A stretch of 64,000 nucleotides of DNA from Ectocarpus siliculosus (Eukaryota > Sar > Phaeophyceae > Ectocarpales > Ectocarpaceae). Both the position numbers and the translations under genes were made by a program. Below, one piece after another: positions 19,772 to 39,600 of the stretch. Every line of letters begins with the position of its first letter. Position 1 is the first letter of the stretch. Below the pieces are notes generated by a model. The model was not told where the DNA came from, did no database searches, and was given only the letters and a program-made list of their open reading frames with translations. The stretch covers positions 361,940-425,939 of the forward strand of contig FN649744.1 in NCBI GenBank assembly GCA_000310025.1, read 5' to 3'.

Positions 19772-21052
19772 TCAGTCAGATGTCCACCAGTCATGCGTGC
19801 TGTGTAGCCACGCCGACAAGTCTTCGTGAGCGGCCCCCCCGTCGCTGCTGCTGCTCTTGTCGTCGTCGCCAGCGTCTACCGCATCCGCCACCGCCGCCAC
19901 CTCTACCCCGCCGGTGTTGCCGTCAGAAGATGCAGCAGAGGCACGGACAGCCGCGTCAAATCCTGGCGCTTCTTTCCCGCCACCCTGCTGCATCAACCTG
20001 GCGAGAGTGGAAGAGGTACGGGGAAGGCCCAGCGGTGAAGGAGAAACCACGCCGAGGTCTCTCGTTGTTCTCTCCACGCCGCAGGTGGCTGCCCTCTTCT
20101 GGCCAGCAGCGGTTGTGGCAGCGCTGGTGACGTTGACGGTAGCGTGCCCGACACGGACGCGCCTCAGCCGTCGCGTAAACGGGGCTGCTGCTGATGACGA
20201 TGATACTGTGTCCATGCCAGCCAACGTTCCTTCGGCTGGTAGCACTGAAGGTGTTCGGGCGGTCCTAGGGGACAAGAAAAATAGTTTTTGAAAGCAGTAC
20301 TGTAACGAGTTGTTGTGTTCCTCTTTGCACAGACATGTGTCTCTACGAAATAGCGCCTAAATTTTCACACGCAGAAACACACAGGTTTCAGGAATCCTTT
20401 GCTTTGTAAAAGGGGGCCCACAGACATAGACGCCGGCGGCCTCTCTACCTCGCAAGCAATACGGGCACGGAAAACAGCGGAAAGAACCATACATGTACAG
20501 ATTGCTTGCTGCCGCAACGATTACAGTACATAATTTATTATAGACCTCTCTCACCGGGAAAACGATGCCCCCGCCGAGATGGAGCCGCTCCTGCGCTTTC
20601 TCGACCGTAAATGCTCGACGCCTCCCATGCCAGCACCAGGCGGCACCCCGCGAGACCTCGTAGTTCTAACGTGTCCGGTGCAAGCGCCCACGCCAGCCCT
20701 CACAACGCCGCCGTCCGGGTTTCCCATGACGAGAGCTGACACCGGACACAGCGTCTGAGAAGAGCCGTCCGTCTGACTGCCGAAGCTATCTCGCCGCCAT
20801 GTGCACCCATGCGGCGTCCTTGGTGCGTCAGCCTGATTCCAACCGCCACTGCTGCTGCCACTAGCGGCAGCAGCAGCATCGGGGGAAGCGACCCCTAGAC
20901 TGCTAACCCCGTCGGCCAAGGAATCCATGTGGCCAGCACTGAGGACTCGCTGGACCCTCAGCCTGTGGTGCCTGGGCTTCTTCGCGCTGCGCCCCGTCTC
21001 GTGACTGTCGCTGCCGAATCGCCCTTGCACGTACCCCCGCTGCTCTTGTTCT

Positions 21053-21084
<32 letters not shown>

Positions 21085-22203
21085 ATGCTGATGCCGGTAG
21101 TTCGTGGCAGCGGTGCCCCCGGACGCCCATTGTACCTGCTGTGAAACCATCACCTCTTCTTGTCGCGTTGGGTCCATCGCCACGTCTCCGCCCCAAGAGC
21201 TTGATCGTGTGTTGCCGTCCGCGGGCCTACATCCCCTCCGCGTTCTCTCGCCCGCGGCGGGCAGCGGCGAATGTTCCATGCCCGTTCTCCCGGCAGCCTC
21301 AGCGAATGTCCTCGACGTCCGTGGTCTTGCGTCAAGCGAAGGTTGTGGCGTTCTTGCAGTCTGCCGCGTCGCACCGGCGACGGCGAACTGTTCGAGTCCG
21401 GGCAGGCACCGGCGTCGAGACGAACCTGAAGGGGTTTTCGTCCAATCCATGCGCTTCTCTCCCCCTTCATATCTCCTCCCGCCGATGATGCTGCTCTGCC
21501 CGGCTTCGGGTCGGAAGCGCTTGACGCCAACACTGCTGTCGTCGGAGTTTCGGTCGGCTGGACCTTCCCAGAGCTCATCGTGTGGAAGCAGCATCGTCGT
21601 ACCTGTTGTGCCTCCGTTGACACCACCGTGGCTATTACCGTCACCGGCGGCGGCCGGCTCGGGCGGAAACACGACCGCGGTCGCACCGTACTCTGCCCCT
21701 CCTGCGAGTGGTTCCCAAGCGAAACGGACCCAGTTGTTTGCCGGCATGCTGTCGCCGACAAACCGCGACCCGGGTGGGGTGTGGAAGCCGTCCTGTCCCG
21801 CCCAAGCAGCAGCAGCGGCAGGAGTGGCAGCACCGCGTGCCGCCGGCATACCTGTAGCAGCAGGCCAGCTGGTACCAAATATATGTCCGTGACGATGCTC
21901 CTCGTTGACCTGCCGTGTCCCTCTCGCTCGTGATGTCGACGGCCGTGGAGCTAGCTCGTTGGCCGCGAAAGCCGAGGCATTGCCGTATGGACCGGGCAAC
22001 AAGTGTACCGCGTTCACCCCTCTGGTCGAGCGGCGCTGCTGTGGGCACGGCTGCCTCCCTCCTTCAGCAGAGAGCTCTTCTGCTACTGTTGTGGCGTGGT
22101 CGAAGACAGCCTCGGGAGAGGATGGTGCGTCGGTGCTGGTGGTGTTGTTCATGAAGCCGATTGACATCCTGATCTCCGTGCGAGAGGGCAAACGCTCCGC
22201 CAT
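19772..22203 (-). CDS. Gln/Ala/Ser-rich protein of unknown function
   Basis: Two minus-strand exons, 22203-20555 and 20264-19772, join through a GT-AG intron (donor CCCG then GTGAGA, acceptor CCCCTAG, phase 2) to give 713 aa. Without splicing the first frame would stop at 20551, two bases past the donor. The sequence is low in complexity: Pro/Gly/Ala-rich N-terminus, a HQH + poly-Gln run from a CTG/CAG tract (about 21053-21090), and basic clusters (KKPRHHRLRVQR, RKRR) that could be nuclear signals. It ends in a Trp-containing tail (WLHSTHDWWTSD). No known domain is recognised. It is divergently placed from the STN1-like gene, 434 bp away. The reading frame and splice are convincing; a nuclear role is inference. 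Confidence 0.65.
21053..21090. repeat. CTG/CAG tract encoding poly-Gln
   Basis: A run of CTG triplets on the plus strand (CAG on the coding minus strand) within exon 1 of the Gln-rich gene. It encodes about ten glutamines next to a His/Gln stretch and is likely length-variable. Confidence 0.85.
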
Positions 22204-22637
22204 TCTTCCGCGAAAGGGCGATCTGTCTGATGTCGCCGGTCGTCACCAGGCGATGGGATAACTGCTGTTGTCTCTACATCACCTACAAGGTCCGAGGCTT
22301 GGAAGCTGCTGCTGCCACTGACATGGCGGTGTGGCGCATTTGCTCACGAGGAACGTCCCGGTGGTAAGCACCTTTTCCACCGAATAGCTTCTGTGCACAT
22401 GATGACCCCTCATCTCGAAATGAAACGGCTCATGATGTATACATGTATGTGTATCATGATCCGGCGCGCAGGGGGGGGTCAGAGAAAGGGACTGAACCCG
22501 TCAAAGAGAGGGGGGGTACCAAAAGAATTGGCGGAGCCTCTCGGCTTGGCACTTGTGATCTCCTCTGTGATCTGGTAGTCTACGCAGCTGCTTGCTGCTG
22601 TGCAGTGCACATCCCACCCAGCCAGACGCAAAGGATC
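22204..22637. promoter_or_regulatory. Putative shared divergent promoter region
   Basis: The 434 bp between the start codons of the minus-strand Gln-rich gene (22203) and the plus-strand STN1-like gene (22638). It must hold both 5' leaders and both promoters unless upstream non-coding exons exist. I see no clear TATA box or other named element. The call rests only on the head-to-head layout. Confidence 0.4.
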
Positions 22638-25600
22638 ATGGAGGTGCGATGGAGACTGTTCGCTCGAGACGTGCTCTCCCTACTCCCCGACGACTCAGGC
22701 GAGTTTCGTTTCGGCAGACCACTTCGGCCCGTTCGAGGCTTGAGACTGCTCGGCATCGTCGTGCACAGAGCGAGAGCAGATAGTAGTCGGCTGCGATCTG
22801 CGGGCAGCGGCAGCTCGGGAGGGAAGAAGCGGGCGAGAGGGGGAAGTGGTTATGGCGGTGGTGGTGAACGTGCCAGCGACGACAGTGCAATGGATGGGGA
22901 GTTCGGCCTGCTAGGAATTGGTAAGTGGGGTTGAATATTCAGCCAGTCTATGTACATCTTGCCACGGGTGCATACAGCGGTAATTGAGTTACCGCGAGGG
23001 ACGCCTTGAGTCTTTCGTTCACCGACGCGAATCACGGCAGCTCTGCTGCTGTACGCCGTATCGCACCCATCACTGGTGGTATCTGCGAACGTCAGAGCAC
23101 ACACATGTTGCATCTTCAGTAAACGAGGATGTCACTTATCTCAAAACATCCCAGGAATTGAAATTTGAAATTTGACATGTTTTCGTCGGACCATCTGGTG
23201 CCGGCACTGCATTTGGCTCTCTCTTGGCTGGCTCTCTCATGGACATGGGCTGGGGACTCTTGTATGTACCTAGAAACGTGCTGCTGAATACCCCCCCCCC
23301 CCCCCCCCGTAGGGTGGATTTGTCGAAATGCCCCAAGCTCTCAAAATCTCCAGCACGGTTGGATACTGCGTTGGAAGCATAAACGCGTCGTGCAGATTCT
23401 ACCACACGAAAAAATCGTGCTCTGAGGCCATTTCTTGCGGTTGTCTTTTTTTATGATCTTTTTCTTTTTTCCTTCTCAAAAAAAGACAACTGGCCGCAGA
23501 AGGTCTTCTTACAATGTCTTTTTTCCTCAAAAAAAGATCGCCAGAAAAAGACAACCCGTTTTGGACAGCCCATCCTGTCTTTTTTTGGGGCAGTTTTGGA
23601 CAAGTGGAGGCTGTCCAAAACTGTTGTCTTTTTTTGGTCACAACCACATCACTCGTACCTAGAAACTTGAATCTCTCGACGGCCCACCGCAAACTCTAAC
23701 GGTGGTCACACGAGTTGTGTCATGTTGCTGGCTGGTACAGAGTCGGTGGCACCGGCGGTAGCCAATGTTTTTTCAGTGGGCTGGACCAAGTGGACAACCC
23801 GATGTGTGCGGCAAACAAGAGGCAAACAAACCGAGAGAGCCTGGACGCAGCAGCGGTGGGTCATTTTTCGTGTACGGTCAACCTTGCGAACCCAACTTTT
23901 GGGCGTCCTATAGCCTCCTGGTCTGTATCAATCATCACACAAAACGAACCATACGCACAGCTCGTGGCGCATGCCTTTATCATCGCTGTTGCTTGAGTGG
24001 GTGGCGAGGGAGTACTGGCAAACCAAAGTTGCGACACGGGCAAAAGAGCGAAAAAAGTTGCTTGAAGATGCGGCGGATCATTTTTCCCGCTTGTCCACCA
24101 CTCTCGCGCTCACAATTTCTGAACGTCCTATAGCCTCCTGGTCTGTGTCAGCCACCACACAAGACGGACCATACACACAGCTCGTGGCGCATACCTTTGT
24201 CATCGCTGTTGCTAGAGTGGGTGGCGAGGGAGTACCGGTAAACCAAAGTTTTGACAGGGGCACAAGAGCAAAAAAAATGGTTGCTGGCGCGGTGGGCATT
24301 TTTTCAGCGTGCTGTCGACTCTCGGCACCTCCATTCCCGTGCCTCCTATCGCCCTGTGGTCTCTGTCAGCCGCCACCCAAGACGGACCATACACATAGCT
24401 CGCGAGGGATAGCTTTACAGTAGGCGCTGCTTCACTCTGTGAGGAGATATCACCGAAAAACCATTTCGGTGGGAAGGTGCATGTATGTGTGACAGCAGCT
24501 GCTGCAGAGTCTGTTTTTTTTTTGGTCGGTGAAAAAGGATCGACCAACACCGTAAGAAGGGGGTCATCGTTTTTGTAGATCCCTTTCTGGGTTGTCCGAA
24601 AGGGGGGAAAAAAGATCTGCGAAAAAAGAACCGCAAGAAATGGCCTGAGGCCACTTGTTAAGCTGTCCTTTTTTGGGCTGTCCCTTTTCTCAAAAAGGGA
24701 CGAACCAAAAAAGAATCTAGCAAAAAGATGACCCACTTGTTACGGTGCTGGTCGATCCTTTTTGCTCATCCGCCAAAAAAATGACCCTGCAACAACAAGT
24801 GCAACGGCCGTTCGTCACACAATGAGTACCTTGGCACCGAGTTGGTTTTTCGGTGATATCTCCGCACAGAGCGAAGCATCAGCAACTGTAAAGCTATCCC
24901 CCGCGAGCTGGGTGCTTGGTCCGCCTTGTGTGGCGGCTGATCGAGACCACAGGGCAGTGGGAGGCACGGCAACTGAGGTGGCGAGAGTCAACAGCACCTT
25001 GAAAAACCCCACCGCGCCAACAACCAGCTTTGTTTGCTCTTTTTTGCCCATGCCGCAACTTTGGTTCATGGATGCTCCCTCGCCACACACTGAAACAACA
25101 GCGATGACAAAGGTATCCGCCACGAGCTATGTGTATGGTCCGTCTTGTGTGGTGGTTGATACAGACCAGAAGGCTGACGGGCGATCAGAGGTTGTGAGCC
25201 CGAGAGTGGTGGACAAGCGGGAAAAATGACCCGCCGCGTCTCCAAGCATATTTTTGTTCTTTTTCCCCGTGTTGCAACTTTGGTTCATCGATGCTCCCTC
25301 GTCACACACCGAAGCAACAGCGATGACAAAGGTATCCGCCATGAGCTGTGCGTCTGATTCGTCTTGTGTGGTGATTGATACAGACCAGGACGCTATAGGT
25401 CGCCCAGAAGTTGGGTTCGCAAAAGTTGACTGTGCACCAAAAAGACCCACCGCTGCTGCGTCCAGGCTCTTTCGGCTCGTTTGCCGCTTGTTTGCCGCAC
25501 ACATCGGGTTGTCCACCTGGTCAGCCGAATGACAACATTACGTCTATCGCCGAGGCTACTGACTCCGTACCACTCACATGACACGACTCGTGCGAATACC

Positions 25601-28600
25601 GTTAGAGTTTGCGGGGATCATCCGTCGAGATATTCAAGTTTGTGGGCAAGTGTCATGTGTTGTGACAGAAAAAGGACAACAAAAAAGGACCGTCCCATCC
25701 TGTCACAAAGTTGCCCAAAAAGGGACAGGATGGGGCGATCTTTTTTCGCTGTCCCTTTTCGGGAGGTTCAAAAATGCAAAAAAAGACCACGTAGCAAGTG
25801 GTTCTTGGTCAGTTGTCCCTTTTTTAGACAAGGGACAGCCCAAAAAAGGACAGCTTAACAAGTGGCCTGAGATGAGAGTTGACAACACTCTCCTTTGCCG
25901 TTCCTGCGGAGGGAGGCATCGGACACACAAATCGACCCTTGCTTTGTATGTACAGAGATTCGTACCCGAACGATACCTGAGAATCAATGGATTATTCTCG
26001 CCCTTGCCTTCGCTTCCCTCAGCGGTAGTACTGTAGCTTCTCTAAGCGGTACTAGGGCTACCGCGTTCGCGGCTTATCGAGGTAACTACATATTTTGTAT
26101 ACTCCATAGGTGGCACAAGATGTCACACCCCCTGGAGTGATTTTCAGAGCTTGATTTATCCGCGGCAGAAATGTGGCGGCGGTGAAAATGGCGGCATTAG
26201 AACCGGCTCGTCGAGAGCTTCCGAGAACGTATCGTTTGATTAATATGTTCTCTTCGTCGTGAAGTAATCGAGCTTTGGAATTGTTCCAGGAGGTGTGATA
26301 TCTTCTGTCACGTACGGTCGTTTGTGTTCCGAGCGCAGCGCAACCGTGTAACATCTCAAAGCTGCGTAGGACTGGGCGGTGCCCGTCCAGGCGTTACATT
26401 TACCTTTGCGCTGTCCACTGCGCGTCGTGTTGCTGCTGACAGATGACGGCACTGGCGTCGTGGAAGTACGATTGCCACTTCGGCTCTGGGATTCGGTCGC
26501 TCTTTGGGAACAGGTAAAACGTACCGTAATGAAAGTACAATAGAAATCCTGTGACACCCCGGCTGGTGCATCCGCACGCCCATGCACCTAGGAGTTTCTG
26601 CTTTCAACCGTACGGAGACTGACGTCTTTTCATGGGTCAGCCGGTCAGCGCGGTCGACGCTTATTATGAAACCACCCGGAAAGGAGTATTGTTCTTGTAT
26701 TGTTCTTGTAATTGTTCTTGTATTGTACTAGTATTGTACTTGTATTGTATTTTAGCCTCATGTAGAGAGGCGATGGATAGACAAAGACACACGGATACAC
26801 ACAACGGGTAGTACCGCCAGCACACGCACAGTTCAACCATTGTGCAGACGCATAGCCCGAAACGGCCGGTAGGAGATTATTGTGAGATCTCGAGGGCGCC
26901 CTTGCTTGTTCCCGAGACGCTTCTCTCGCTCCTCTCCTCGCCCCTCCTTCGGGGGGAGGGAGGAGGGGGGCACCCCAGGAGCCCTCTGCCTGCACAACGT
27001 AGTTACACCCGACCTCGCCGCCATCGTGGTGTCCCGCTCCCCCTCCTTCTCTTTCCCTCTTGCTGTTGGTGGTTTGCGGTTTCCGAACAGCTAGACGTCG
27101 TGGGTACCCCAGAGAGGCTCCAGGGGTCGTTATCGTTATCGTTAGCGTTAGCCTCCAAGACATCGAAGACACTGGACGTCACTGGCATCAGGGCCGACGG
27201 CTGCCACGTCGAGGCAGACCCGAACGTGGCTTGCCTCAGGGCCCTGGAGTGCATCGATCGGTGAGACCCGTGCACTGCTGTTTACACGCGGCGCCTCTGT
27301 GTAGGTGTATAGCTGGCACGAATTCCGCAAGACGGACTCCTGCGGAGTTGATTTTTTTTCGGGATGAATAATAAAAAAACGCGGAAACTCTGTTCCTTAC
27401 CTTGAAGCGTGGGGAAGAAGCGGCACTGGATAGAGATGAGAGTGTTATCAATGTGAAGACCACCACAATGACGACAACGATGACAACAGTATAGAATAAC
27501 AACAGATGTCAAGTGCCAATAACCACAAAAATAATAGGACAGATCATGAGCTAGCTCATGGCCCCCCAAACAGCAGCCCCAACCAAACGTGCGTAGCTCA
27601 CTAGCTGGTACATCTAGCTAACTAGGGGGGCTGCCCTCGGGACGGCCGGGATCGAACTTTATGCGACTGATCTATCCTGGGCGTGAAAATTTCGTACGTT
27701 TGCATCTACTCTTACACCTTGTCTGTCTTGGTCACGTCTCTTTCAGTCATGTGGCGAGGCTTACATACGTCTGGCAAGCCCTCTTGCCTACTCAAGAAAC
27801 TCTACTCGAGTTGTAAGGCTTGCATATGGCAAGCCCAATTTGCTTGCTTCGGGCATGCTCGAGGAGGTCCATATGTACGTCTTCTTTTTCTTGGATGTAT
27901 GCATGTGTGGGACGTGTCTGCCCCATTTGTCCCCAAGAAGCGGTGTCACCCCCACGATCGTTCTCACTTACGTCTTTCATCAACATACGGGGGACACTTC
28001 TCCACCCCACGCCTTCCAGGCGCTCGTTAATGTGCAGCATACCTGTACCACTTCTGAATGTTGGTCTTTCTCCAACTTCTGTTGGTCGGTCTCACTCCAA
28101 CTGCTGTCTTGATGCTACTGCGACTCCCGTTACGAAACCCCTAAATCTATTTATTTAGTGATAAGCGAGGCGTTTTCGGCTCTTCTCTCCTTCTGCATCA
28201 TACATACGAACACCGTTTGCTTCGAAAATGTCGTGTGTCGAACCTTGAGAATAGCATGTCGAATTCGGAGCAGCGGCAGTGACACTTGGAACCCCCTTGC
28301 TGTGCCTGCCATGACCATCCCCCCTCCCCCCCCCCCGTCCCACTATGCTGTATCTGCTGCTGCACCTGAACTGTGCAGCTACAAGTGTTGCTACTTTTCA
28401 CGATCCTGGTCCCCTTCGGGAATTCCCTTGCCCCCCCTGCTGCCCGATCCCCACGCGGGCGATCAGCCTACTGGGAACGCTAGCAGACAAGGCGTTGGTG
28501 CAGGCGTGGGGAAGGAGGATGCCGGGGATTGTGGTGGTGGTCATGGCCAGAGCAAGGAGAGTGGAGAGGTCGAGAGCGGCTCTACTCTTGAAGGTGATTG

Positions 28601-28811
28601 GCTTGCTCATGATGGCAACAATGACGGTTTCACGAAGGATGGTCTCAAGACCTCTGGTCTGGGTGCCGACGTTAACCGTTACCATGTGGAGTTTGTTTTT
28701 GTTTGGTACACGGCACACGGTACGGTATCACCGGTGTCGCGCACGGTACCAGTCGGCAGTAGTTCAGGCTTGACGACTAGACTATCGAGCGACCGTACAA
28801 TGTATAGTTAG
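22638..28811 (+). CDS. STN1: STN1-like CST complex subunit (telomere-capping OB-fold protein)
   Basis: Four plus-strand exons join in frame: 22638-22920, 26443-26513, 27091-27260 and 28379-28811 (phases 1, 0, 2), about 318 aa. Residues 1-46 (WRLFARDVL, FRFGRPLRPVR, LLGIVV) match the start of the STN1 OB fold. Exon 2 supplies the hallmark DDGTGVVEV (residues 95-103), its first Asp codon being created across the splice. Exon 3 ends with EADPNVACLRALECID, matching the conserved DPN-x-E-x-L-x-W-L-E helix region after the fold. STN1 binds TEN1 and CTC1 and helps cap telomeres and restart replication. Residues 47-88 are a Gly/Ser/Lys-rich insert between the first strands of the fold, which is unusual. 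Intron 1 (3.5 kb) contains three transposon copies. The last exon is the least certain: its Gly-rich C-terminus lacks a recognisable winged helix. Confidence 0.75.
23426..24645. mobile_element. Harbinger-like non-autonomous DNA transposon, copy A
   Basis: A 1220 bp element with terminal inverted repeats beginning GGCCATTTCTTGCGGTT, perfect for 17 bp and then imperfect for some 40 bp. It is flanked on both sides by TGA, read as a 3 bp target duplication (23423-23425 and 24646-24648). GGCC ends and a 3 bp TNA duplication suggest the PIF/Harbinger superfamily. The interior holds three tandem copies of a ~217 bp unit (near 23908, 24124 and 24341). It lies in intron 1 of the STN1-like gene. No transposase domain is visible, so it is probably mobilised in trans. 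Confidence 0.8.
24649..25867. mobile_element. Harbinger-like non-autonomous DNA transposon, copy B (inverted to A)
   Basis: A 1219 bp element directly abutting copy A and sharing its TGA. The ends are GGCCACTTGTTAAGCTGTCC inverted at the right end, identical for about 38 bp. TGA follows at 25868-25870. The interior is a diverged reverse-orientation copy of A's interior, again with three ~217 bp repeats (near 24919, 25137 and 25356). The repeats are open over long stretches and encode related peptides around GPSCVV.DTDQ, but I cannot say whether they are translated. Its terminal repeats differ from those of copy A beyond the first bases. Confidence 0.8.
26113..26309. mobile_element. MITE family 1, copy a
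   Basis: About 197 bp with inverted ends: GCACAAGATGTCACACCCCC on the left and the inverse of ACAGAAGATATCACACCTCC on the right. The inverted similarity continues through GAGCTTGA / CGAGCTTTGG. Related copies lie at 43618-43830 and, in part, 42135-42260. It sits in intron 1 of the STN1-like gene. It is non-coding; the superfamily is not clear. Confidence 0.75.
26598..26665. repeat. Dispersed repeat fragment shared with 7455-7525
   Basis: Direct-orientation match to the segment near 7460 (TTTCAACCG.AC.GAGACT.ACGTCTTTTCAT). It lies in intron 2 of the STN1-like gene. Confidence 0.5.
26688..26755. repeat. Imperfect GTATTGTTCTT tandem repeat
   Basis: About six units of roughly 11 bp (GTATTGTTCTT, passing into GTATTGTACTA) in intron 2 of the STN1-like gene. 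Confidence 0.8.
27600..27690 (-). repeat. Possible tRNA-derived SINE fragment (B-box)
   Basis: On the minus strand, AGTTCGATCCCGGCC matches the RNA polymerase III B-box (GGTTCGANTCC type). It is followed by CCGAGGGCAGCC and a C-rich tail. The rest does not fold into a proper tRNA: no acceptor stem and no clear A-box. Weak call, in intron 3 of the STN1-like gene. Confidence 0.25.
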
Positions 28812-31800
28812 TAGGTGTGTGCATCGACCGTGCTCACGGGGTGACCAATGAGAAGAGAATATTTGTGCGTTAGTCTGATCGTGATGGCGGGATGATAAAC
28901 GCGAACATATGGTGATTGTGCGTGTGTATGCATCACCGACCTCGGCCTAGCCTAGTAGATACTGCGGCCGGTTCCTTGCCGGCATCGCGGTGTGTCGTAT
29001 TGTAATCTAGATGCCGTGTGTTGTCAACAAAGTATTTTGGAGTGGAGAGACTCTGATACTATGTACTCGAGTGAGGAGTAGTCTATTTCTGCTTGCGGCG
29101 CTTAGGAGAGACCGGACTGCGGAAGTAGTCCGATGATAGCGCCAAGGTCATCACGGAGACAGAAATGATTCACGAACCAATGGCAACAATGACGTGGACA
29201 GCGGCAAAACCTGTGAACTAGGACGCTGTCTCCACAGCTCATAAATGTCGTCGTTGTCGTCGCTGTCGGTTTGCTACAGCACTAGTACCGTCTCCGTCAC
29301 GACCTTGGCACTAGTATGGGACGATTCCCGCCATCCCATAGGAAGGCCACTAGACTACACTAGTCTCGTCACTCTCGGAAACAAACGTCGCAGACAGATG
29401 AACACACCATCGTAAAAGTACAACTATTGAAATCTGAAAGCAGAACTGCGGAAGCAGAACTGCGGAAGCAGACTGCCCAATTCCTGTTTCGTGAAGAACG
29501 GAACTGGCTCACTAATTCCATGCGGATCCCTCCCCCCCCCCTCGCGCATGTCACGACACACGACACACGGCACACGGCACACACACACGGCACAACAAAG
29601 CACGGTTGTCGGGTCTGATTGGGAGCATGGGTGGCGCGACAGGGGCACAGCTCGCTGCGGAACTAGGGCTACCGCAGGGGCACGCCGGAGTGGAATCTGC
29701 CCTAGCTCAGGCGAGTTGGGTGGCGTCTCATTTGCTCGCCTCATCTTTATTTTTTTCATCGCTGTAGTCAACGCTTACAGCATTTGTTGCTGCATACCGC
29801 CCGCAGACCATTGTCATCTCTAACGTGTGCACGACACAAGAAGATCCCAGCAGTTGGGGTGTTTGTTTTCCGAGTGTGACCGTTGGCGTCACCCTAAAAC
29901 GATGGTGCCTAGGAGTATTATGGTGGGTACGCGAATGGTGTTGATTCGCGAGACGTGGGTCGTGTATGTAGCCAAACTAGACATTGTCTCGCTGTCAGTA
30001 GAATTAAGATTCGTTGGCGTCCCCTGCTCGTCCATCAAATGTTATGTCCATCGAAAGCTCTCGTGGATGTTCAGACACTTCGGCCAGATCCCTTCCAGCC
30101 GTCAGCCGCATGTGCGTCATCAATGCACGATCCGTGAATCAAGTGTCTGTAGCTCTGTTTTCCTCTCTTATCCATCGAAACGCCTGTGGTCTATCCTCTC
30201 ACCGAGCAGGCAACGCCTTCACTTGATCAAAACAATGTGTATGTGTATGGGTATACATATGCATATGTATTAATAGCACGTGCTGAAAAGGGAGCTGGAT
30301 GGTCGATGTGACTTCCAGGGAGCAGGCACGGCCGTCGAACAACAGTAACACCTCGTCCCATCCATCCCATCCCGGTTGGTTCCCTGCTTGTTCCCGCGTC
30401 CGGGGTCCCTTCCACGGGTTTCTTCCGTGTCGACAGATGCAACTGCAAGGCGCCATCTACCTAGCGGGGGATTGCTACATGCCCCTTTAGACCTACCAAG
30501 ACAGATGGATGGTTTGGGCAGACAGACAGCAAAGAGAGATGAGAGGTGGACCTTGCTTTCTGGGGGTTGGGGATCAAGAGAGAGAGAGAGAAGGGGGGGG
30601 GGGGGGAGGGGGGGAGACAGAGAGAAACGCCGACATGGTGGGATGGTTTGCGCAGACAAACAGCAAAGAGAGATGAGAGGTGGACCTTGCGTTCTCGGGG
30701 TTGGGGGGAGAGAGTGAGAGAGAGAGAAACGGCGACCTAGTGGTCGAAACAGTCTCTGTGTTTGTAGGGGCCAGTGGAGAGCAAAACAACACCTGTTGTT
30801 TCCCCTGTTGGCCAAGAATGAGTGTCGTACCAAGTGAAGCACTGACTATTTTTGGTTTGCCGCGTGTTCTTGGATACTACAGCAGCTCGGTCGTAATATT
30901 GTGGGGCGTTGTAGCACGTCACTCCTCGGGGCGTAGCGTGACGTGCCGGCCATGATCGACGGGCTTACGCCATCGTACCTCGGCCGGCTGAACCGTAGCA
31001 GCAGCAGTAATAGCGGCACCCTCAAGAAGCAGATCGATCTCGAGTTTGGAAGGTTCCATCCGAAAGGAGCTGCACCCATTCACCCACCCATCTGCTTGGT
31101 GCATGTGGGTGTTGGCATGCATTTAACTGTAGGATTCCCTTGATGAGACAGAGCCTCGGAGTGGTGGGCGACAATACCGCATTCCCCTCCAGAATACAAT
31201 ACGTTGGCGTTTTAGACTTCAGAGTGTCCGCTGTACCCTTTTCTGCTCAGTGGAGGGTAGTGCATGGCGTTCACGAGCTCTCCAGTGCAAAGATGGTATT
31301 GGGGTTGGCCGATGGTCTCGTGAAGGGTTGCTTTGGACGCATGCTCGCATTTCTCAGGGCGGCTGTTGTTGGACCACCGAGTACCGCATACTAGGGCTGA
31401 CGCTTCTGTCGTTCAAACGCCGACAAGGAGGCCATCCAGCGAGGCAAGCTGACTCCTATAACTGTGGTATAGATTAGTAAAACCCTTAATCCTTACATCC
31501 CGGCACGCTGCATCCCCCGTCATCGAATGCTGCTGCAACGGGTGACGTGGCGTGCTCTCCAACACACTAACACACTGTGCGTACGGTCTTTTGCACAACA
31601 AGATGCCCGTACCTCGACATTTGAGCGCTTGAAAACACAGCAGGTAGACGTATTCTTTCGCACTTTCTTTCAGCGGGTGGGTGTGACGTTCAGGTCAGGG
31701 GAGGACGGGGGTTGCCCCCGTCCACAGGCACAGTACTGAAGTTTCAAACACAGAAGACACACACACCGGCGTACGCCGCGAGCCCTGTGGCAGTGCGAAA

Positions 31801-32874
31801 CTGCGCAAAACAGCGGTTGGTGCCCTGTGCGGACGTTTATCCACAAGGCAACGGGATCGATCGGTGGTATTTATTGTAGGCGCGAAACCAAGCGGCCGCA
31901 CAGAACACACATGGATCATTGTCCATTTCGCACCACGGGCACTCCTCGCCATCCTCACGCTGATATCGTCTTGCCGGCTCTCCGTTTTTGCGGAGGAACA
32001 AAAGAAACTACGGTAAATATTGTCCTCTCATATCGTGTCATAACCCCATCCCCACGCTGCTCCATCGAGAAGAAAAGCTAACGTGTACCCACTCAAATTG
32101 CAGTCTACTGGCCTGGGCTCGGGCTGACATTCTCATTCGGGGGTTAGGATTTGCAGTACAGCAGCAGTATCGTCATACTCCGTCGGCATGACGCTATGTA
32201 GCCAATCTATTCTTGGCGGGTACAGCAGTACCGTCCGTTCAAATCCCATACAACAGTGTTGAGTGCTGCACTCGACCCTTGCTACTGGTAGGTCCGACAG
32301 TTCATCTCCGGGTTCTCAGAGTCTCCAGCCTGAATCGCTTTTCAACGAACGTTCTCAGCGTGTGAGACGGCGATACATACGTCGATAGGTACCGTTTCTA
32401 GGCGCTCGTCGTCGCTGGCTGAGTTTGATTGTTGGCTTCTCAAGCCTTCGTTCAAGATCCCGTCCTGTTTGTTTTCTGTCTTGAGAGGAAATGCCGTTCA
32501 GTCGCGCCATGTCGATCGACCAAATGGACCGTCGTCACCCTTCGCTAATCGTAACACCCACCATGGCGAACTTCGACACCACCATGGAATACAAACAATC
32601 GAACCGTTTTTACCCCTTCCCCCCCGTGCATGACACGTAAGCTGATCGTAAAGGATGCGTGCTGAAAACAACAGTATCGCAACCAAACAAGAAATCAAAA
32701 CTCCCAAGCCCCCTTGCCTGCTTCTCTCCGAACCCGACCGCCTGTTCAACACACGCCACAGACATAGATAGATGCCACACCACCGCACGTACCCAACAAC
32801 GAACGACGTGCAGCAGCGGGAGCAACACCCGGGGCCCTTCTAGGTACACTACATACCCCTGCTGGCATGAATTC
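28812..32874. other. Gene-poor spacer between STN1-like gene and PRP38 3' end
   Basis: Convergent spacer holding the 3' regions of both neighbours. No supported gene. An open stretch at 30943-31143 (MPAMIDGLTPSYLGRLNR..) reads protein-like, with a KKQIDLEFGRFHPKG segment, but has no identifiable splice partners or family. The frame at 29827-30273 is probably chance. Confidence 0.4.
30508..30706. repeat. Tandem duplication, ~65 bp copies 134 bp apart, with GA/poly-G spacer
   Basis: The segment starting GATGGTTTG.GCAGACA and running to GGGGTTGGGG occurs at about 30508-30572 and 30642-30706 with few differences. Each copy is followed by AG-rich sequence; the first by a long poly-G run. Confidence 0.8.
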
Positions 32875-33630
32875 CTACTTTAGAGGCTTGAGCCCCAGCT
32901 TAGCCCTCTCATCGTTCCAGAACTCGACCGACCCGGTGGACGCCTTCCCGCCTTTCCCTCCCCCGCCGCCGCCGCCCCCGCCGTCAGTCTTGGTCTGCTT
33001 GAAGAGCTTGCTCCCCTTGGGCTTCTTGGCCTTGGTCGCTGGCTTCTTCTCTTCTTCTTGTCCTTCTGTGTCTTTGGCCTGACCGCCGCCGGTGCGGGGG
33101 CTTCCCCGCCGAGGAGGCGTTGATGGAGAACGCGAGCGGCGGCGCTTGCGCGGGCTCCTGCTGTCCCTGTCCGCGGCGCGTCTGTCTCGGCCCCTGTAGT
33201 TGAGGACGAGCGATCGGGGCGTGGCACCAGCGCGAGAGACAGGGACGTCGGCGAGGACCAAGGTGAGGTGGGGGGTCGAGACAAGGCTAAGGCTGTGTCG
33301 GGTGTGTTCTCGTGTGCTTGCTCTGGCTCCCGTGGGATACGGCCGGTGTTACACAGCCACGACGGCGGGTGCTGCTCCGACGTACAGCAAGGACTCCAAT
33401 CGAAGAAAGCACTGGGGCACGCCATCGGCAGACCGGATACTTGATACTTCCCTTTCAAGGCTGCGACAGCCGTACCATGCGCGACCATGACCCTGCGTGG
33501 GGCGGTGACAGGGCACGACTACACCAACCCCAGCACAACATACACACGCCTACACGACGCAAGGCAACACGACTCCTCCAACAGCCCCCCTCCCTCCCTC
33601 CTAAGGTCACCTGCTTCGGCTCCTGCTTCG

Positions 33631-33663
<33 letters not shown>

Positions 33664-36600
33664 GCGGCGGCGTGTCGATCGCCCCGCATCCCGCCCCCCC
33701 CGCCTGGCACTGGCACCGCGGCTGCTGCTGGCGCTCCTGCTCCTGCTCCTCCGCCCACCGCGCTCCCTGCTGAAACTCCTGCGCCTCCCCCTATCCCGGC
33801 TTGAACTCCTGCTGCTGTGGCGCCCGCCGCCCCTCCGTCCACCTCCGCGGCCGCGGCTCCTGCTCCTGCTCCTGCTTCTCCCACGGCGTCCGGTGGGGGG
33901 GCGGCGGGTGCCGCGACCCGCACTCCGGCTCCTGCTTCGGCTCTTGCTGCGGGACCTGCCTCTGTCCCTCCAGCCCGACCTACGGTCATGGCGATCACGG
34001 TCGCGACTGTCGTCCCTCCCGCGCTCTCTGCGTCATGTTGGTGGTGTTGGTGGTAAACGAAAATGCCAAACAAGGGCGATTCGGATAGGGCGTCAGAGGA
34101 AGCTTAATAGGTTGCAACAGAGCAAGGCTACGCCAGAGGAAGGCTGCGGCCAACCCTGACGCTACATCGGTGACGCTATCGGTAATAAAGGGCACATTAA
34201 TCACGCCTTGAAGTTGTCGCATGGTACGTACGCGAGGAGATGGTAGTTGGACGTAGATTAGTGCGCTTCGCGCCAAAGCGACGGCGACGTCCAGAACCAC
34301 TGCTTGACCTTTCAGCTTCATCTACTTCCCCGGCCCCATCCCCCCGCAACACTTACCGGCTCCTGCTGCTGCGGCGGCGGCCCCTATCTCTGCTCTTGCT
34401 CCTGCTCCTGCTCTTGCTGCGGCTCCAGCTCCTCCCCCTCTTCCCCCTGCTGCGGCTTCGGTCGCGCCCCCCCCTCCCCCTGCTGGCGTTCCTCTCGTCC
34501 CTCTTGCTCCTGCCGCCTTTCCGCTTGCGGTCGTCGTCATCGTCGCTGGAGGCACCACCAGCAGAATCATCGCCTGAGTCATCACCCCCGCTGCTGCTGC
34601 TGTCGCCCTTCTTCTTGCCGCTTCCGTCTTCGGTCCTCCTGGCCGGGGCCTTCTTGCCCTTCTTGCCCTTCTTGCCGCCATCTTCGTCCCCCTGCCCGCC
34701 GCTGCCGCCCTTTCCTCCAGCCCCTTCATCCTTGTCCGCCTTGGAACCCTTCTTCCCACCGTTAGCTGCAGTGTCACCACCACCACCACCACCACCACCA
34801 CCACCACCACCGCCGCCGCGATCCCTGTCACGGTCCATCGGGAAAGATCGCTCCTTCGCGGCAAGCTCCCGTCCCCCACTCAAGCTACGGCTACGGCTAC
34901 GGCTATGGCTGCGCCCACGCCCACGCCCGCTGCTCCTGCTCCGACTCCTGCTCCTGCTCGCTCCGCGGCCAGTCCTGGTGGAGGCGTGCTTCTCTTTCCC
35001 CGCCCTTTCCGGAGGAATTTTCGTGGAACTTTCCGCGCCGCCGCCGGTCGAGACCTTGGTGGCCTTCGCCGTGCGGGAGCGGCCCTTGGACCCCATCCCA
35101 GCACGCTCATCGGCAACGTCCTGGATGAGCGACATGGCCAGGGCTTCTCGAGCCTCGATCTCGGCAGCGCTGACCGCGGTCGGAGGCTTGGGCTGGATTG
35201 GATTGGATCGGATTGGATGGACAAGAATTGTTGTGCGAGGAGAGGATGCGTGGGGGAAGGAAGCGATGCCGTGAGAGTGCGGACGACGGGCGGGAGGGGA
35301 AAGGCGGATAGAAACGGGAACTCCACCGTGTCTAATGTCGGACATGTGAGCCAAGACAAAAAAAAACGTAAAAACCTTGCGAAAGTTGCCACCGCTCAAC
35401 GATACCCAAGGAAATGATATAGCGATATAGCCCTCTCGACTCTGTCGCTATAGCAGAGGCAGTAATTATCTCCACAGCAGTACGAGGGGTCCAAAATAGT
35501 GCGGGCCCCCGATTTTGTGCGGTCAAAGTCTTGCCTGGCACTCGATTTGCCGAACACGTCGAAACCAGTGTAAAACACAGCAGTCCGCAATAGTTATGCA
35601 TGTATTGTGGAGCTTTGGTACGGAACCATACTACATCGGGACAATCACCACATGGCTTCACCTCTCTCTCCCTTTCTCATCTATCTCTCGTCTCCCGCAC
35701 GCCTCTTTCTACCTGTGTCTTCTGGCAACCTCCAGCTGCTGTCTCACATTCTTGCTGTACTTGTCGTCGTCCCCGTCTTCCTCGTCGTCGCTACCAGCAG
35801 ACGAACCACGCTTGCCCTTGCTCCTGCCGCTGTCCCTGCCGTCAGCCGACCAAGAAACCAAACAACAAAACGATTTCATTTCATCGCGACACCCCTTATC
35901 ACCCTTCTTGGGGGAATGCTCCTTCCTGCCTTTCATTTGTCCAAAACGAGCTGGAAGGTTGGCAAGACATCCTCGGGCGGTGCCAGCGATGCTTCCATCC
36001 CGCTTTGAGCGACCGCTAGTCTGACTCGTCGCACACGAACGCTATGACACGAAACACAGCAAAGGGCAGCCTTCTGACTCCAGCCAAACGGACACCGGGC
36101 GAAACTAAAACAGAAACTAAAACAGCAACAGCGGTGCTGTAGCGTGTGACGGGCCCCAACCACGAGGGCATCACGAAGGCAGCAAAAGGGCACACGAAAG
36201 CAGCAACAGGAAGAGAGCCAGCCGTGGATGCGCGAAAAGACCAAGAGGCCAAGAGAGCAATCAAGAGACACTGCTTGAGATGCTTGAGACTTGTGCTCCT
36301 CGTACCTCCCTCTCCCCCTGCTCCCGCTCCTGCTGCGGTCGCGGCCTCTGCCTCTACGGTCTTGGCGGTCGCGGTCACGGCCAACTCCTCTGCCCCTGTC
36401 CTTCCTGTCGTCGTCGTCTTCCGATTCTTCTGGCTCTCCGGCGCTAACCTCGCCCCCAGCCTGGACCGGAGAAAAACAACCAAAACAAAAATACGTGCAC
36501 AACGATTAGCACCGTAAGATTTTAGCACCAAAAAACATGCGCACGGGATGACACCGTAAGCTTGCAGCACGGACTGATACGGGTACTAACGAAACCGTAC

Positions 36601-39600
36601 ACGCAGGACAGCACGGAAAGCTTGCGGCGCGGAAAACGTGCACACGGGATTGCATTGTAAGCTTGCAGCACCAAAAACATGCACGGGGGAAAGCACCGTA
36701 AGCTTGCCGCACGGATTTCGGGGAACTACGGTAAGCTTCAAGCACGGACTCGTGGTACGATAATACCGCAATCTCGTACGCGGGATACCTTGCAGCAGCA
36801 ACGAAAGCGCTTAAGCTTGCTCCATGCACATGGGGATAATACCGAAACGTTGCAGCACGGAATCCGGAAATACCACAACCTTACTATTATACTCGATGCA
36901 ATCGGGGTACCAGTACATTACAGCGCCTTTAGAGCCATCGCAAAGGGGATGTCATCGTTTTTCAATCTGTTTCACTACTGTTGTCTTGCTCATTTCAATA
37001 TTAATATTACACTTCAATATATTATTGCCCTTGCTCCAGGCGCACGGTGTTGCATCGAGGAAAACGAAGTTAAAACAAGAGTCGGAGAGATGGCACCCCC
37101 GTGTTAGCGTTTTCTTAAGTCGTAGTTCTCCACAACTACTGTAGGAGGGTGCGAACACCAACCGATACCTTTCAGGAAAGCCCTCGACCAGGCGTTTTCC
37201 AAAAAATCCCCTTTCGGCAGTGATAAATATATATATATATATATATATTCCCTCCCATCATTGGACTCTGTCGTCTGCGCCTCTGGCCCCCACCCTCCAC
37301 TTCTACTATTATAGCTAGACGACCCAACCGGCGTCACATAGGAGGGGGGGGTTGGACCCCCTCCTGCGGCTCCTGCCTGAGATATTTTTATCGCGACAAG
37401 GGTCCAGCAATCCCTTCCCTCGCGACTTATTATGAAGTCGATCTAGTTTTCTAACAACGAGCTTTGCAGCCCGTCGCTTCCAACTTAGACCAGGATTTAT
37501 ATAGTGAGAAAAATAACTCCCTTTGCCGGGACTCGAACCCATATATACCCCCCTGGTTGTGGAGAAATACGCTACGGTACTATAATAATAAAAAAACGCT
37601 GACACGGGGGTGCTGTGCTATCTCTCCGACATTTCGGCACTATAGCTTGAACACCTCAACACATGCCATGCACTGCTATTGTGGCAATCCAGAGAGCGCC
37701 GAAGGCAGCAACAGTACCGAAAGTACACAGCAGTAGAAGATGTATAATACTCCCAAGTGTTCGTTGTCGTGCTTTTCTTGTCTTCACACATCGCAAACCA
37801 CTCCGGTCGCTACTCAGTGACTTTTGACTTTTGGCACCAGACCGCTCAACTGGCGAGAACGGCGAGGCGCTAAATTGTCTACGAAAAAACGAAAGAGCAG
37901 TGTTTGGCGTAGAAGGAAGGGCCTAACAGCGAATCAGGTAATAGATAGAGGGCTGGTACAAGACAATACTCTATTAATACCGGGTTTCTCTTAAAACCGT
38001 ACCATCAACTACTGGTATGTGCTTTTCTCACGGCCACGACAAGCCACTTTCTCTCTCTGAAGCAACACTTTTCTCTTGGGATACTGTAGTGCTCACATCC
38101 CAGTCCTCGTCCAGGACGCTAACCCTCGCCCCCTTGAGCAGCTTGGAGTCCTCCAGAGCCACTCTCTTCGGCAACCGGGGCAGGGCGATGCTGCAGCTGA
38201 TGTCCGAGTGCAACAGCTCTTCGATCTGCTGATCGATCGTGCGCAGCTCCCAGCCTGTTGTTTCATGCGGCAGTGACATCGGTCGGCATTTACAGCAGTG
38301 GCTTTGGTGCTAGAGAGCGAGCGAGCGACATGCAAGGCCAAGCACGGCAGCTACTACAAAATACAAGCGGTTCAGTCGGTCGTTTGATAAGCTCACACGT
38401 GGTGCCCTGCGCAGAAACAAGAACGCTCGGAGTATTCACAACCCCACCGTTCGTGGAAAGCACTTCGGCTAGCAGCACATCGCGACACTTCCATGGGCCA
38501 TCCATATGTCCATGGTATGCCATATGCTACATGTGACGAGGACGCACGTCGTGCGGGGACCCGGCGTCACCGAGAGAGAAAACGGAAAAATCCGCAGCTA
38601 ATACAACAGCGCCACTTTGGGCTAGCTAGGGGTTAGTTTGCGTTGGATAGCTGGCCATCCCACCATACGGTCGTCCATCCAATTAACGGTTGTCCATCCC
38701 ACCAAACGGGAGTCCATCCAATGAAACGGTCGCCCATCCCACCAAACGGCATTCCATCCAATCAAACGGTTGGTGAATAGTCCATCCCACCAAACGGCTG
38801 TGCATCCAATCAAACGGTTGGTAGTCCATCCCACCAAACGGCATTCCATCCAACTACAACGGTTGTACATCCCACCAAACGGCCGTCCATCCAATGAAAC
38901 GACGGCTGGCATATGTAGTCCACCTAGTGGCGACCCACAAATACCAATAAATTATCGTGGCCTTCCTGTAACGTTAAAATACCATGGTAATATTTCTTGA
39001 AGCATAGCATACCTTGTGTCAAGCGTAGTCGTATCTTCCTGTAGTCGTTGTAGAGAGGCTCTAGGTACTGATATATATCCGCCGGGGTGCCGACGAGTCG
39101 GAGATAGAACGCGCCCAGCACTCGAACATACCTTGCAGCACCACGGCACGCCAAGTGGCAGCAAGCAAGCAGCATTCAAGAACGAAAACACGGACTACGA
39201 GAGAGACGAAAGTATCACGTTCCCAGACAAGTGTTGACGGCTGACCATCGCAGTGAAAGTACTGCAGTATGTGAAAGCAATATTCGCGAACGAAAAGAGT
39301 ACGAAATAATACCTTCCAGACAGAAAACTCAAGACTGAACACAGCAGTGACAACAGTCGCACCATTCCGTACAGTACTCCCACAACGCTTCCCCCGTTGC
39401 GTTCGAAGATGAACTTGAACCAACCAATCCACCCATCAAACGGGTCATGGCAGCGCCGACTCCTCTTTGAATCTTTGAAATCGCTCGAGAGCAAGGACAG
39501 GACAATAGCCGGCGCAGACAGACCAGCCAACACCAACCACACTTCTCACGCTTCCTTCCTTGCATTGCGTGTTTGAGACAAAGGTAGATAGATATGCGAC

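Follow-up and report, generated by a model that had tools for sequence, protein, structure and literature searches.

At positions 22638-27264, and perhaps as far as 28811, of the Ectocarpus siliculosus DNA analysed here (the window, a stretch of 64,000 nucleotides from contig FN649744.1) lies what may be a divergent gene for an STN1-type OB fold, which would be a second copy beside a canonical STN1 gene on C17. Judged from sequence comparison, this reading was given a probability of about 0.45. At best, the locus is a divergent STN1-like paralogue or remnant whose gene model is uncertain. Blocks similar to STN1 occur there in order on one strand, and STN1-, TEN1-, RPA2- and RMI2-like genes were found elsewhere in the genome. 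The features concerned are as follows.

22638..22920, plus strand: proposed exon 1; N-terminal helix RLFARDVLS and first strand PVRGLRLLGIVV, then Gly/Ser-rich; ends in phase 1
22776..22901, plus strand: Gly/Ser-rich stretch, codons 47-88; loop between the first and second strands
22921..26442, plus strand: proposed intron 1, GT-AG; contains a large inverted repeat
23569..25871, no strand: imperfect inverted repeat (foldback-like) with 10 inverted pairs, inside intron 1
26443..26513, plus strand: proposed exon 2; DDGTGVVEV, the end of the second strand and the third strand
27091..27260, plus strand: proposed exon 3; possible fourth strand (EQ|LDVVG), (TCGTTA)4-coded stretch, fifth strand, ADPNVACLRALECIDR
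27262..27264, plus strand: in-frame TGA directly 3' of exon 3; would give an OB-only protein of 175 aa
28379..28811, plus strand: proposed exon 4, doubtful; YKCCY, then a low-complexity tail
C17:4012532-4012334, 4011561-4011411, 4011199-4011085, minus strand: canonical STN1, three joined exons, 155 aa

Gene model and coding composition

When the four proposed exons were joined in frame, they encoded a protein of 318 aa in which GRPLRPVRGLRLLGIVV, DDGTGVVEV and ADPNVACLRALECI followed one another in that order, as a sequence-only reading of the window had described. All three introns are GT-AG, with donors GTAAGT, GTAAAA and GTGAGA and every acceptor ending in CAG. The exons, the motifs and the Gly/Ser-rich stretch of that reading are present, while its account of two of the joins was not confirmed. 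It had held that the first splice brings the key DD together. The genomic bases 26442-26447 read GATGAC without any splicing, the acceptor G of the first intron being the same base as the last one of exon 1, and the unspliced frame spells RVVLLLTDDGTGVVEV; the argument from DD for the putative join of exons 1 and 2 is thus wrong. The join of exons 3 and 4 was not borne out either, since exon 3 reads into the in-frame TGA at 27262-27264 and the acceptor at 28379 fits poorly. Its fit to the STN1 tail ranked 1 of 73 pyrimidine-backed [CT]AG sites, 2 of 164 [CT]AG sites and 4 of 328 AG sites, at a score of only 0.0. The 42-residue insert (residues 47-88) is indeed Gly/Ser-rich, but calling it basic was an overstatement, as a hand count gave 7 K/R vs 6 D/E.

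Only exon 3 was coding-like in composition (+0.16 bits per codon, 98.9th percentile). Exons 1, 2 and 4 lack coding composition, with -0.15, -0.11 and -0.21 bits per codon, corresponding to the 70.5th, 74.7th and 61.3rd percentiles of 2486 ordinary open stretches, and no coding-like segment of at least 11 bits was found within exons 1 or 2. In contrast, the exons of the C17 STN1 gene have coding composition. An alternative coding model trained on long ORFs separated poorly and was left out of the evidence, as were motif patterns drawn up once the window had been inspected. Pfam searches with ten long ORFs of the window gave no match at E 0.01, nor did an Rfam search at the gathering threshold or a tRNA scan of the window give any.

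The length of intron 1 is due in good part to the inverted repeat inside it. A 595-base part of this element (23884-24478) has 40 scored copies in the genome, itself included, with 86-100% identity, out of 266 candidates. This multi-copy repeat, the atypical composition, the (TCGTTA)4 repeat at 27127-27150 within exon 3, the Gly/Ser-rich stretch and the presence of a canonical STN1 elsewhere would all suit a decaying or dead STN1 paralogue that once functioned, is now drifting and has undergone repeat expansions in two loops. However, the proposed exons contain neither stop codons nor frameshifts and their splice sites are consensus GT-AG, and we regard a decaying or dead paralogue as rather unlikely.

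Conserved STN1 blocks

Blocks were built from human and C17 STN1 and compared with a null of about 498,000 positions; the blocks, their edges and their distances were chosen after the window had been inspected. Four blocks, the helix, P-I--V-V-G-V, DDGTG and DPN--LEC, were found in order on one strand over exons 1-3. In exon 1, the helix block A1 scored 18.5, a value reached by 4 of 498,550 null positions, and the first-strand block A2 scored 21.5 (3 of 498,250); the two weakened to 310 and 127 null positions, respectively, when C17 STN1 was the sole source. The spacing from A1 to A2 is the same as in human STN1 by hand count. Block B (DDGTG), with 9 columns within exon 2 alone, scored 29.0 and was reached by none of 498,700 null positions. 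Block C (DPN..LEC) scored 38.0, against a null maximum of 21.5 and with 0 of 497,050 null positions reaching it. Its first 15 columns, which lie in exon 3, were reached by 0 of 497,800 null positions with both sources, by 7 with human alone and by 2 with C17 alone. The fourth-strand block LWEQLDVVGTPERLQG (p 2.6e-4) and the fifth-strand block (p 2.6e-3) were weak. The number of such ordered sets expected by chance in 64 kb was estimated as ~4e-10, a figure that presumes independence and carries the post-hoc choice of blocks, edges and distances. Taken together, the conserved blocks exceed what chance would give in these comparisons.

Whole-protein and spliced-alignment tests

In hhalign, the window protein matched the human plus C17 STN1 profile with P 3.9e-5, and with P 1.5e-6 when the 42-residue stretch was removed; in each of two runs, 0 of 400 residue shuffles did as well. 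The corresponding values were P 0.14-0.17 for RMI2 and P 0.95 for RPA2. Smith-Waterman comparison with human and C17 STN1 gave 0/1000 and 0/1000 shuffles as good with the stretch omitted, and 32/1000 and 1/1000 with it kept. An approximate Arabidopsis STN1 query was written out after the window protein was known, so that its z of 15.9 may be biased and was left out; the same reservation applies to its spliced alignment.

The sequence-only reading had named a top STN1 hit in a profile search as support, and the window protein did not give one. It had no match to Pfam Stn1 (PF10451) even at E 10, whereas at a cut-off of 21.5 bits the C17 protein scored 25.1 and human STN1 32. The approximate Arabidopsis STN1 sequence scored only 12.3 bits, so this model can miss members. 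A search of the genome with Pfam Stn1 gave 0 matches, but it missed the C17 gene as well and is therefore uninformative. The window locus was absent among the matches listed when the genome was searched by tblastn with STN1 queries from human, Arabidopsis (approximate sequence) and C17. PDB searches with the window protein returned low-complexity or chance-like matches only (best E 0.033).

With none of the queries did the locus stand out clearly from random genomic DNA in spliced alignment. At the base setting it scored 34.0 with human STN1, rank 48 of 52 pieces and strands, and ranked 13 of 52 with the human plus C17 profile. With the C17 query it ranked 1 of 52 (59.0, the next 57.2); two other settings lowered it to third and fourth. 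When the C17 query was combined with costly introns, the best chain of the 10-kb piece with the locus reached hhalign P 4.4e-8, mostly via other exons, and ranked 2 of 54 behind C17 STN1 itself (next P 4.5e-4). Exon chains from other genomic pieces reached P values down to 2.9e-15 if freely picked and 2.3e-5 if picked sparingly. The 30-40 kb piece of the window, minus strand, repeatedly ranked high in the exon-chain search. Overall, similarity over the whole gene is not clearly beyond chance.

These results bear on the possibility that there is no gene at all, and that STN1-like pieces of non-coding and unrelated coding DNA were strung together by the choice of exons. Exons 1, 2 and 4 are composed like ordinary open stretches, the DD-by-splice argument fails, spliced alignment does not clearly separate the locus from the 51 other pieces and strands, and exon picking alone yields strong-looking profile scores. 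This explanation was at first favoured on the spliced alignments, exon chains and composition; it was lowered because of the block tests, in which four blocks stood in order on one strand and no more than 4 of the roughly 498,000 null positions equalled any one of them. The coding composition of exon 3 also speaks against it. We now consider it unlikely.

Canonical STN1 and related OB-fold genes

The C17 gene was located by a genome search with the approximate Arabidopsis STN1 and then confirmed by Pfam and PDB, its best five PDB matches being human STN1. One candidate TEN1 gene on C17, an RPA2-like candidate on C16 and an RMI2-like candidate on C43 were also found in the genome. RMI2 profile PF16100 had C43 as its sole match over the genome, below the cut-off at E 0.91, and none in the window protein. 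CTC1 profile PF15489 gave 0 matches, a result without weight because no control matched it either. Further matches at L004, L007 and L014 look like chance or Gly-rich sequence.

C17 STN1 and the window protein share, in the same order, a helix (LLIRDV in C17),.I..VEVSGVVV, DDGTG and DPN....LHWL.C. A phase-1 intron lies immediately upstream of DDGTG in the window gene and five codons upstream of it in C17 STN1. Unlike the window protein, that of C17 has a shorter first loop and a clear fourth strand, GELLVVQGKLKRYRG, in addition to its Pfam Stn1 match and coding composition. Human STN1 possesses C-terminal winged-helix domains as well. Its OB domain (PDB 4joi, 7u5c) resembles the window protein in having KLYIRDIL 25 residues upstream of PIKQVDVLGTVI, and DDSTGV. 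In human STN1 the disordered loop connects strand 3 to strand 4 (PMC8533325), whereas the insert of the window protein would lie between strands 1 and 2.

Since the C17 gene is clearer and searches of Pfam and PDB with the window protein gave nothing relevant, the latter is probably not the main STN1. That the alga uses the window gene as its working STN1, with the C17 gene secondary, would fit the block similarity. It is very improbable, as only the protein from C17 exceeds the Pfam Stn1 cut-off and has human STN1 as its top match, and the coding composition of its exons is mostly missing from those of the window.

Among the family labels compared, an STN1-type OB fold suits the window protein best by hhalign and blocks. 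The proposed STN1 identity is partly supported, though this is probably not the main gene. The label is made less firm by sister families. RMI2 (C43 candidate; human 3mxn) is likewise an OB fold with DD.TG, and an approximate plant RMI2 sequence, written out with the window protein already known, fitted DDGTGVVEV at 42.0, above the 29.0 of STN1, and gave a Smith-Waterman z of 4.0. When correctly registered, the RPA2 block for the first strand likewise fits that of the window protein (20.0, with 0 of 498,250 null positions reaching it). High scores on the C43 RMI2 candidate were also seen for STN1 blocks A1 and A2 and for B at 12 columns. In the cross-family hhalign background, C16 RPA2 vs STN1 gave P 2.5e-5 and C17 STN1 vs RMI2 P 3.9e-5; true members of sister families thus reach similar STN1 scores, which weakens the label. 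Because of the plant RMI2 and in-register RPA2 fits, the STN1-paralogue reading was lowered and that of another RPA2/STN1/RMI2-type OB subunit, such as an RMI2 or RPA2 relative, was raised; the idea of two STN1 proteins in the alga was lowered slightly as well. We still consider such a subunit quite improbable, as RPA2-like and RMI2-like genes are already present elsewhere and most blocks of these families did worse than those of STN1. The RMI2 blocks for the helix, the first strand and the DPN end were poorer (3151, 673 and 27 null positions). Among the RPA2 blocks, that for DDGTG (15 null positions) and that for the DPN end (84) did worse, and the helix too was closer to STN1 than to RPA2. 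RMI2 identity, suggested by DDGTGVVE and LEC-YK--Y, was set aside in view of the C43 gene and of three of four blocks favouring STN1, and RPA2 identity in view of the C16 candidate.

Implications for CST in the alga

STN1 proteins pair with TEN1 through a small OB barrel and a C-terminal helix. If the window locus is a divergent STN1-type gene, its OB barrel with the C-terminal helix (DPN..L..LEC) would by analogy pair with TEN1, and the two proteins might assemble on single-stranded DNA into an alternative module resembling CST or RPA. In such a barrel, the Gly/Ser-rich first loop and the stretch that the repeat encodes ahead of the fifth strand would sit at the surface as insertions, which the fold could tolerate. 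A doubtful extension is that the alga has two STN1s, one canonical and one strongly diverged and OB-only with a Gly/Ser-rich first loop, which would form two CST-like complexes sharing one TEN1. Were this true, one complex might, for example, serve chromosome ends and the other stage-specific replication or telomerase work.

In the literature collection searched, no paper contained both STN1 and Ectocarpus as whole words, and no study of brown-algal CST was among the matches listed. With clear STN1-like and TEN1-like genes in the genome, CST is open to study in this alga. Should the window gene prove to be expressed, it would represent a second STN1 and offer a chance to observe an alternative CST subunit.

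A canonical STN1 and related OB-fold genes in the Ectocarpus genome

The genome searched comprised 189.46 Mb in 492 contigs, with the window at C19:361940-425939. A search of it with Arabidopsis STN1 led to C17:4011100-4011192 on the minus strand (E 0.097), where the frame reads REVAITSASKPTDPNQEALHWLRCVELGKTVYRPPF; adjacent frames of this contig contribute SYVKLLIRDVHGLG..HGNKAIHRVEVSGVVVHVKPG and VKYILDDGTGLLPC..HELGELLVVQGKLKRYRG. The following genes were found outside the window:

C17:4012532-4011085, minus strand: canonical STN1, three exons, GT-AG joins, 155 aa
C17:4172285-4171530, minus strand: TEN1-like gene, two exons above the Ten1_2 cut-off
C16:4703021-4705799: RPA2-like gene, with matches to residues 130-180 (E 0.123) and 241-268 (E 8.3e-5) of human RPA2
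C43:82959-83096, minus strand: RMI2-like gene, PF16100 E 0.91 (under the cut-off) plus frames recognised by eye

The joined C17 protein passed Pfam Stn1 (E 1e-5, 25.1 bits, cut-off 21.5), and its top five PDB matches were all human STN1 (best E 2.8e-5). With human STN1 as query, a spliced aligner recovered the same three exons with identical internal splice boundaries. A donor site lies after the last exon, so that further exons may follow. The TEN1-like gene, with a likely first exon PGKIHLVREILRDGVTGSVRVLGR upstream, lies about 160 kb from STN1. The C16 gene has an IKLVGCIVEVD..EDTTG exon upstream of its matched stretches, and the C43 frames read VKLFVSQLN..EFTRVWVQ, GIVIEVNPAERSFIVDDNTG and GQHVLMVGAVEAP.

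Structure and surroundings of the proposed window gene

The four exons proposed at 22638-28811 (22638-22920, 26443-26513, 27091-27260 and 28379-28811) join in frame across GT-AG introns to encode 318 aa, and the STN1-type motifs named in the sequence-only reading are present in them. The product would be 175 aa if the TGA immediately 3' of exon 3 terminates translation. That reading also held that the first splice creates the DD pair; this argument fails, because GATGAC already stands at 26442-26447 in unspliced DNA. An open frame at 26370-26540 (RVVLLLTDDGTGVVEVRLPLRLW) crosses the proposed exon-2 acceptor, so exon 2 may start further upstream. Within exon 3, a (TCGTTA)4 hexanucleotide repeat (27127-27150) encodes SLSLSLAL in frame. 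Two features lie close by:

23569-25871: imperfect inverted repeat, foldback-like, inside intron 1
20554-22242, minus strand: 563-aa open frame with a polyglutamine run

Of 266 candidate genomic copies of a 595-base part of the repeat, 40 were scored, including the part itself, with identities of 86-100%. Such an intronic repeat would fit the finding, reported in a study of Ectocarpus transposons, that 34.1% of TE bases lie in introns (PMC12477816). The 563-aa frame lies some 400 bases before the proposed gene start, as if the two were arranged head to head, and had no Pfam match at E 0.01.

Conserved STN1 blocks

Human and C17 STN1 served to define four ungapped blocks, which were scored against a null of 25 pieces (250 kb, both strands). 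This null left out both the gene-bearing piece and the window's final 4 kb.

Scores of the window gene for STN1 blocks (both references), and null positions reaching the score of the gene
Block	Score	Both references	Human alone	C17 alone
Helix	18.5	4/498,550	1	310
First strand	21.5	3/498,250	0	127
DDGTG (9 columns, exon 2 alone)	29.0	0/498,700	1	0
DPN..LEC..CY	38.0 (null maximum 21.5)	0/497,050	0	0
Same, columns 1-15 (exon 3 only)	28.5	0/497,800	7	2

The chance expectation of the ordered set in 64 kb was 4e-10, a value that assumes independence and uses blocks and distances chosen knowing the window. The single-reference counts indicate that the fit of the two blocks in exon 1 depends largely on the human sequence. 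Conservation of the blocks in the correct order argues that the resemblance to STN1 is not due to chance. Blocks for the fourth and fifth strands fitted weakly (p 2.6e-4 and 2.6e-3), which would count against a complete STN1 match. That this gene is the STN1 of the alga, as first proposed, is highly improbable to us; the canonical gene lies on C17.

Membership of another OB family was weighed with RMI2 blocks (human, C43 and plant; DPN end from human and plant only) and RPA2 blocks (human and C16, in proper register). The RMI2 blocks gave 3151, 673, 0 and 27 null positions for helix, first strand, DDGTG and DPN end; the RPA2 first strand scored 20.0 with 0 null positions, and its DDGTG and DPN end gave 15 and 84. 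For DDGTGVVEV, plant RMI2 alone scored 42.0 versus 29.0 for STN1, and the C43 RMI2 candidate also scored well with three of the STN1 blocks: helix, first strand and DDGTG in its 12-column form. By these scores the first-strand and DDGTG blocks are common to the superfamily, so it is the helix and DPN-end blocks that carry the STN1 label. Assignment to another family appears quite improbable.

Whole-gene tests and coding composition

Searches of Pfam and PDB found no relevant match for the window protein. Since Pfam Stn1 also misses Arabidopsis STN1 (12.3 bits), the Pfam failure alone does not rule against membership. The locus was absent among the matches listed by tblastn of the genome with human, Arabidopsis and C17 STN1. 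In spliced alignment at the base setting, the 10-kb piece bearing the gene was compared with 51 pieces and strands: it scored 34.0 with human STN1 (rank 48/52), 31.0 with the human and C17 profile (13/52) and 59.0 with C17 STN1 (1/52, next 57.2), the last mostly via other exons. In two other settings its C17-query rank was 3 and 4. When introns were made costly and C17 STN1 served as query, the piece reached hhalign P 4.4e-8, second of 54 behind C17 STN1 itself (next 4.5e-4). Whole-gene aligners may fail here because the gene has diverged, carries a 42-residue insertion and has unclear fourth and fifth strands.

The protein joined in the sequence-only reading gave P 3.9e-5 against STN1. This value is no proof by itself, because chains optimised in other pieces (to 2.9e-15 with cheap introns, 2.3e-5 with costly introns) and sister-family comparisons (C17 STN1 against RMI2, 3.9e-5; C16 RPA2 against STN1, 2.5e-5) are similar or better. 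Its hhalign score was unmatched by residue shuffles (0/400, two runs). In the null test, STN1 chains on the minus strand of 30001-40000 scored high repeatedly (to P 2.9e-15, cheap introns), probably a composition effect. The absence of a gene would agree with spliced-alignment scores that do not clearly stand out from those of other pieces; given the ordered blocks, we regard it as rather unlikely.

A composition model was trained on the C17, C16 and C43 genes listed above (508 codons in all); it ranked the true frame first for 11 of 13 exons when these were left out of training. Exons 1 to 4 of the window gene scored -0.15, -0.11, +0.16 and -0.21 bits per codon, and the 13 training exons 0.03 to 0.58. 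A scan for segments of at least 11 bits in the gene's own frame within the proposed exons returned a single one, 27172-27258, in exon 3. This composition argues that the gene is either atypical or has lost strong coding constraint. A decayed copy would show such a loss; we hold decay to be unlikely. A divergent STN1-like paralogue is the reading we prefer, at a probability of roughly 0.45.

Comparison with known CST

In CST, the OB fold of STN1 binds TEN1 and aids the recruitment of DNA polymerase alpha. Among the papers searched, none contained both STN1 and Ectocarpus as whole words, and the titles and abstract openings of the matches listed included no study of brown-algal CST. In human STN1, contact with the polymerase is reported to require the disordered loop that joins strands 3 and 4 (PMC8533325), whereas the loop of the window protein lies in a different place, between strands 1 and 2. 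CST is described in a review as largely conserved in function and not necessarily in sequence (PMC9498494), so the divergence of this STN1-like paralogue, if it is one, would by itself be unsurprising.
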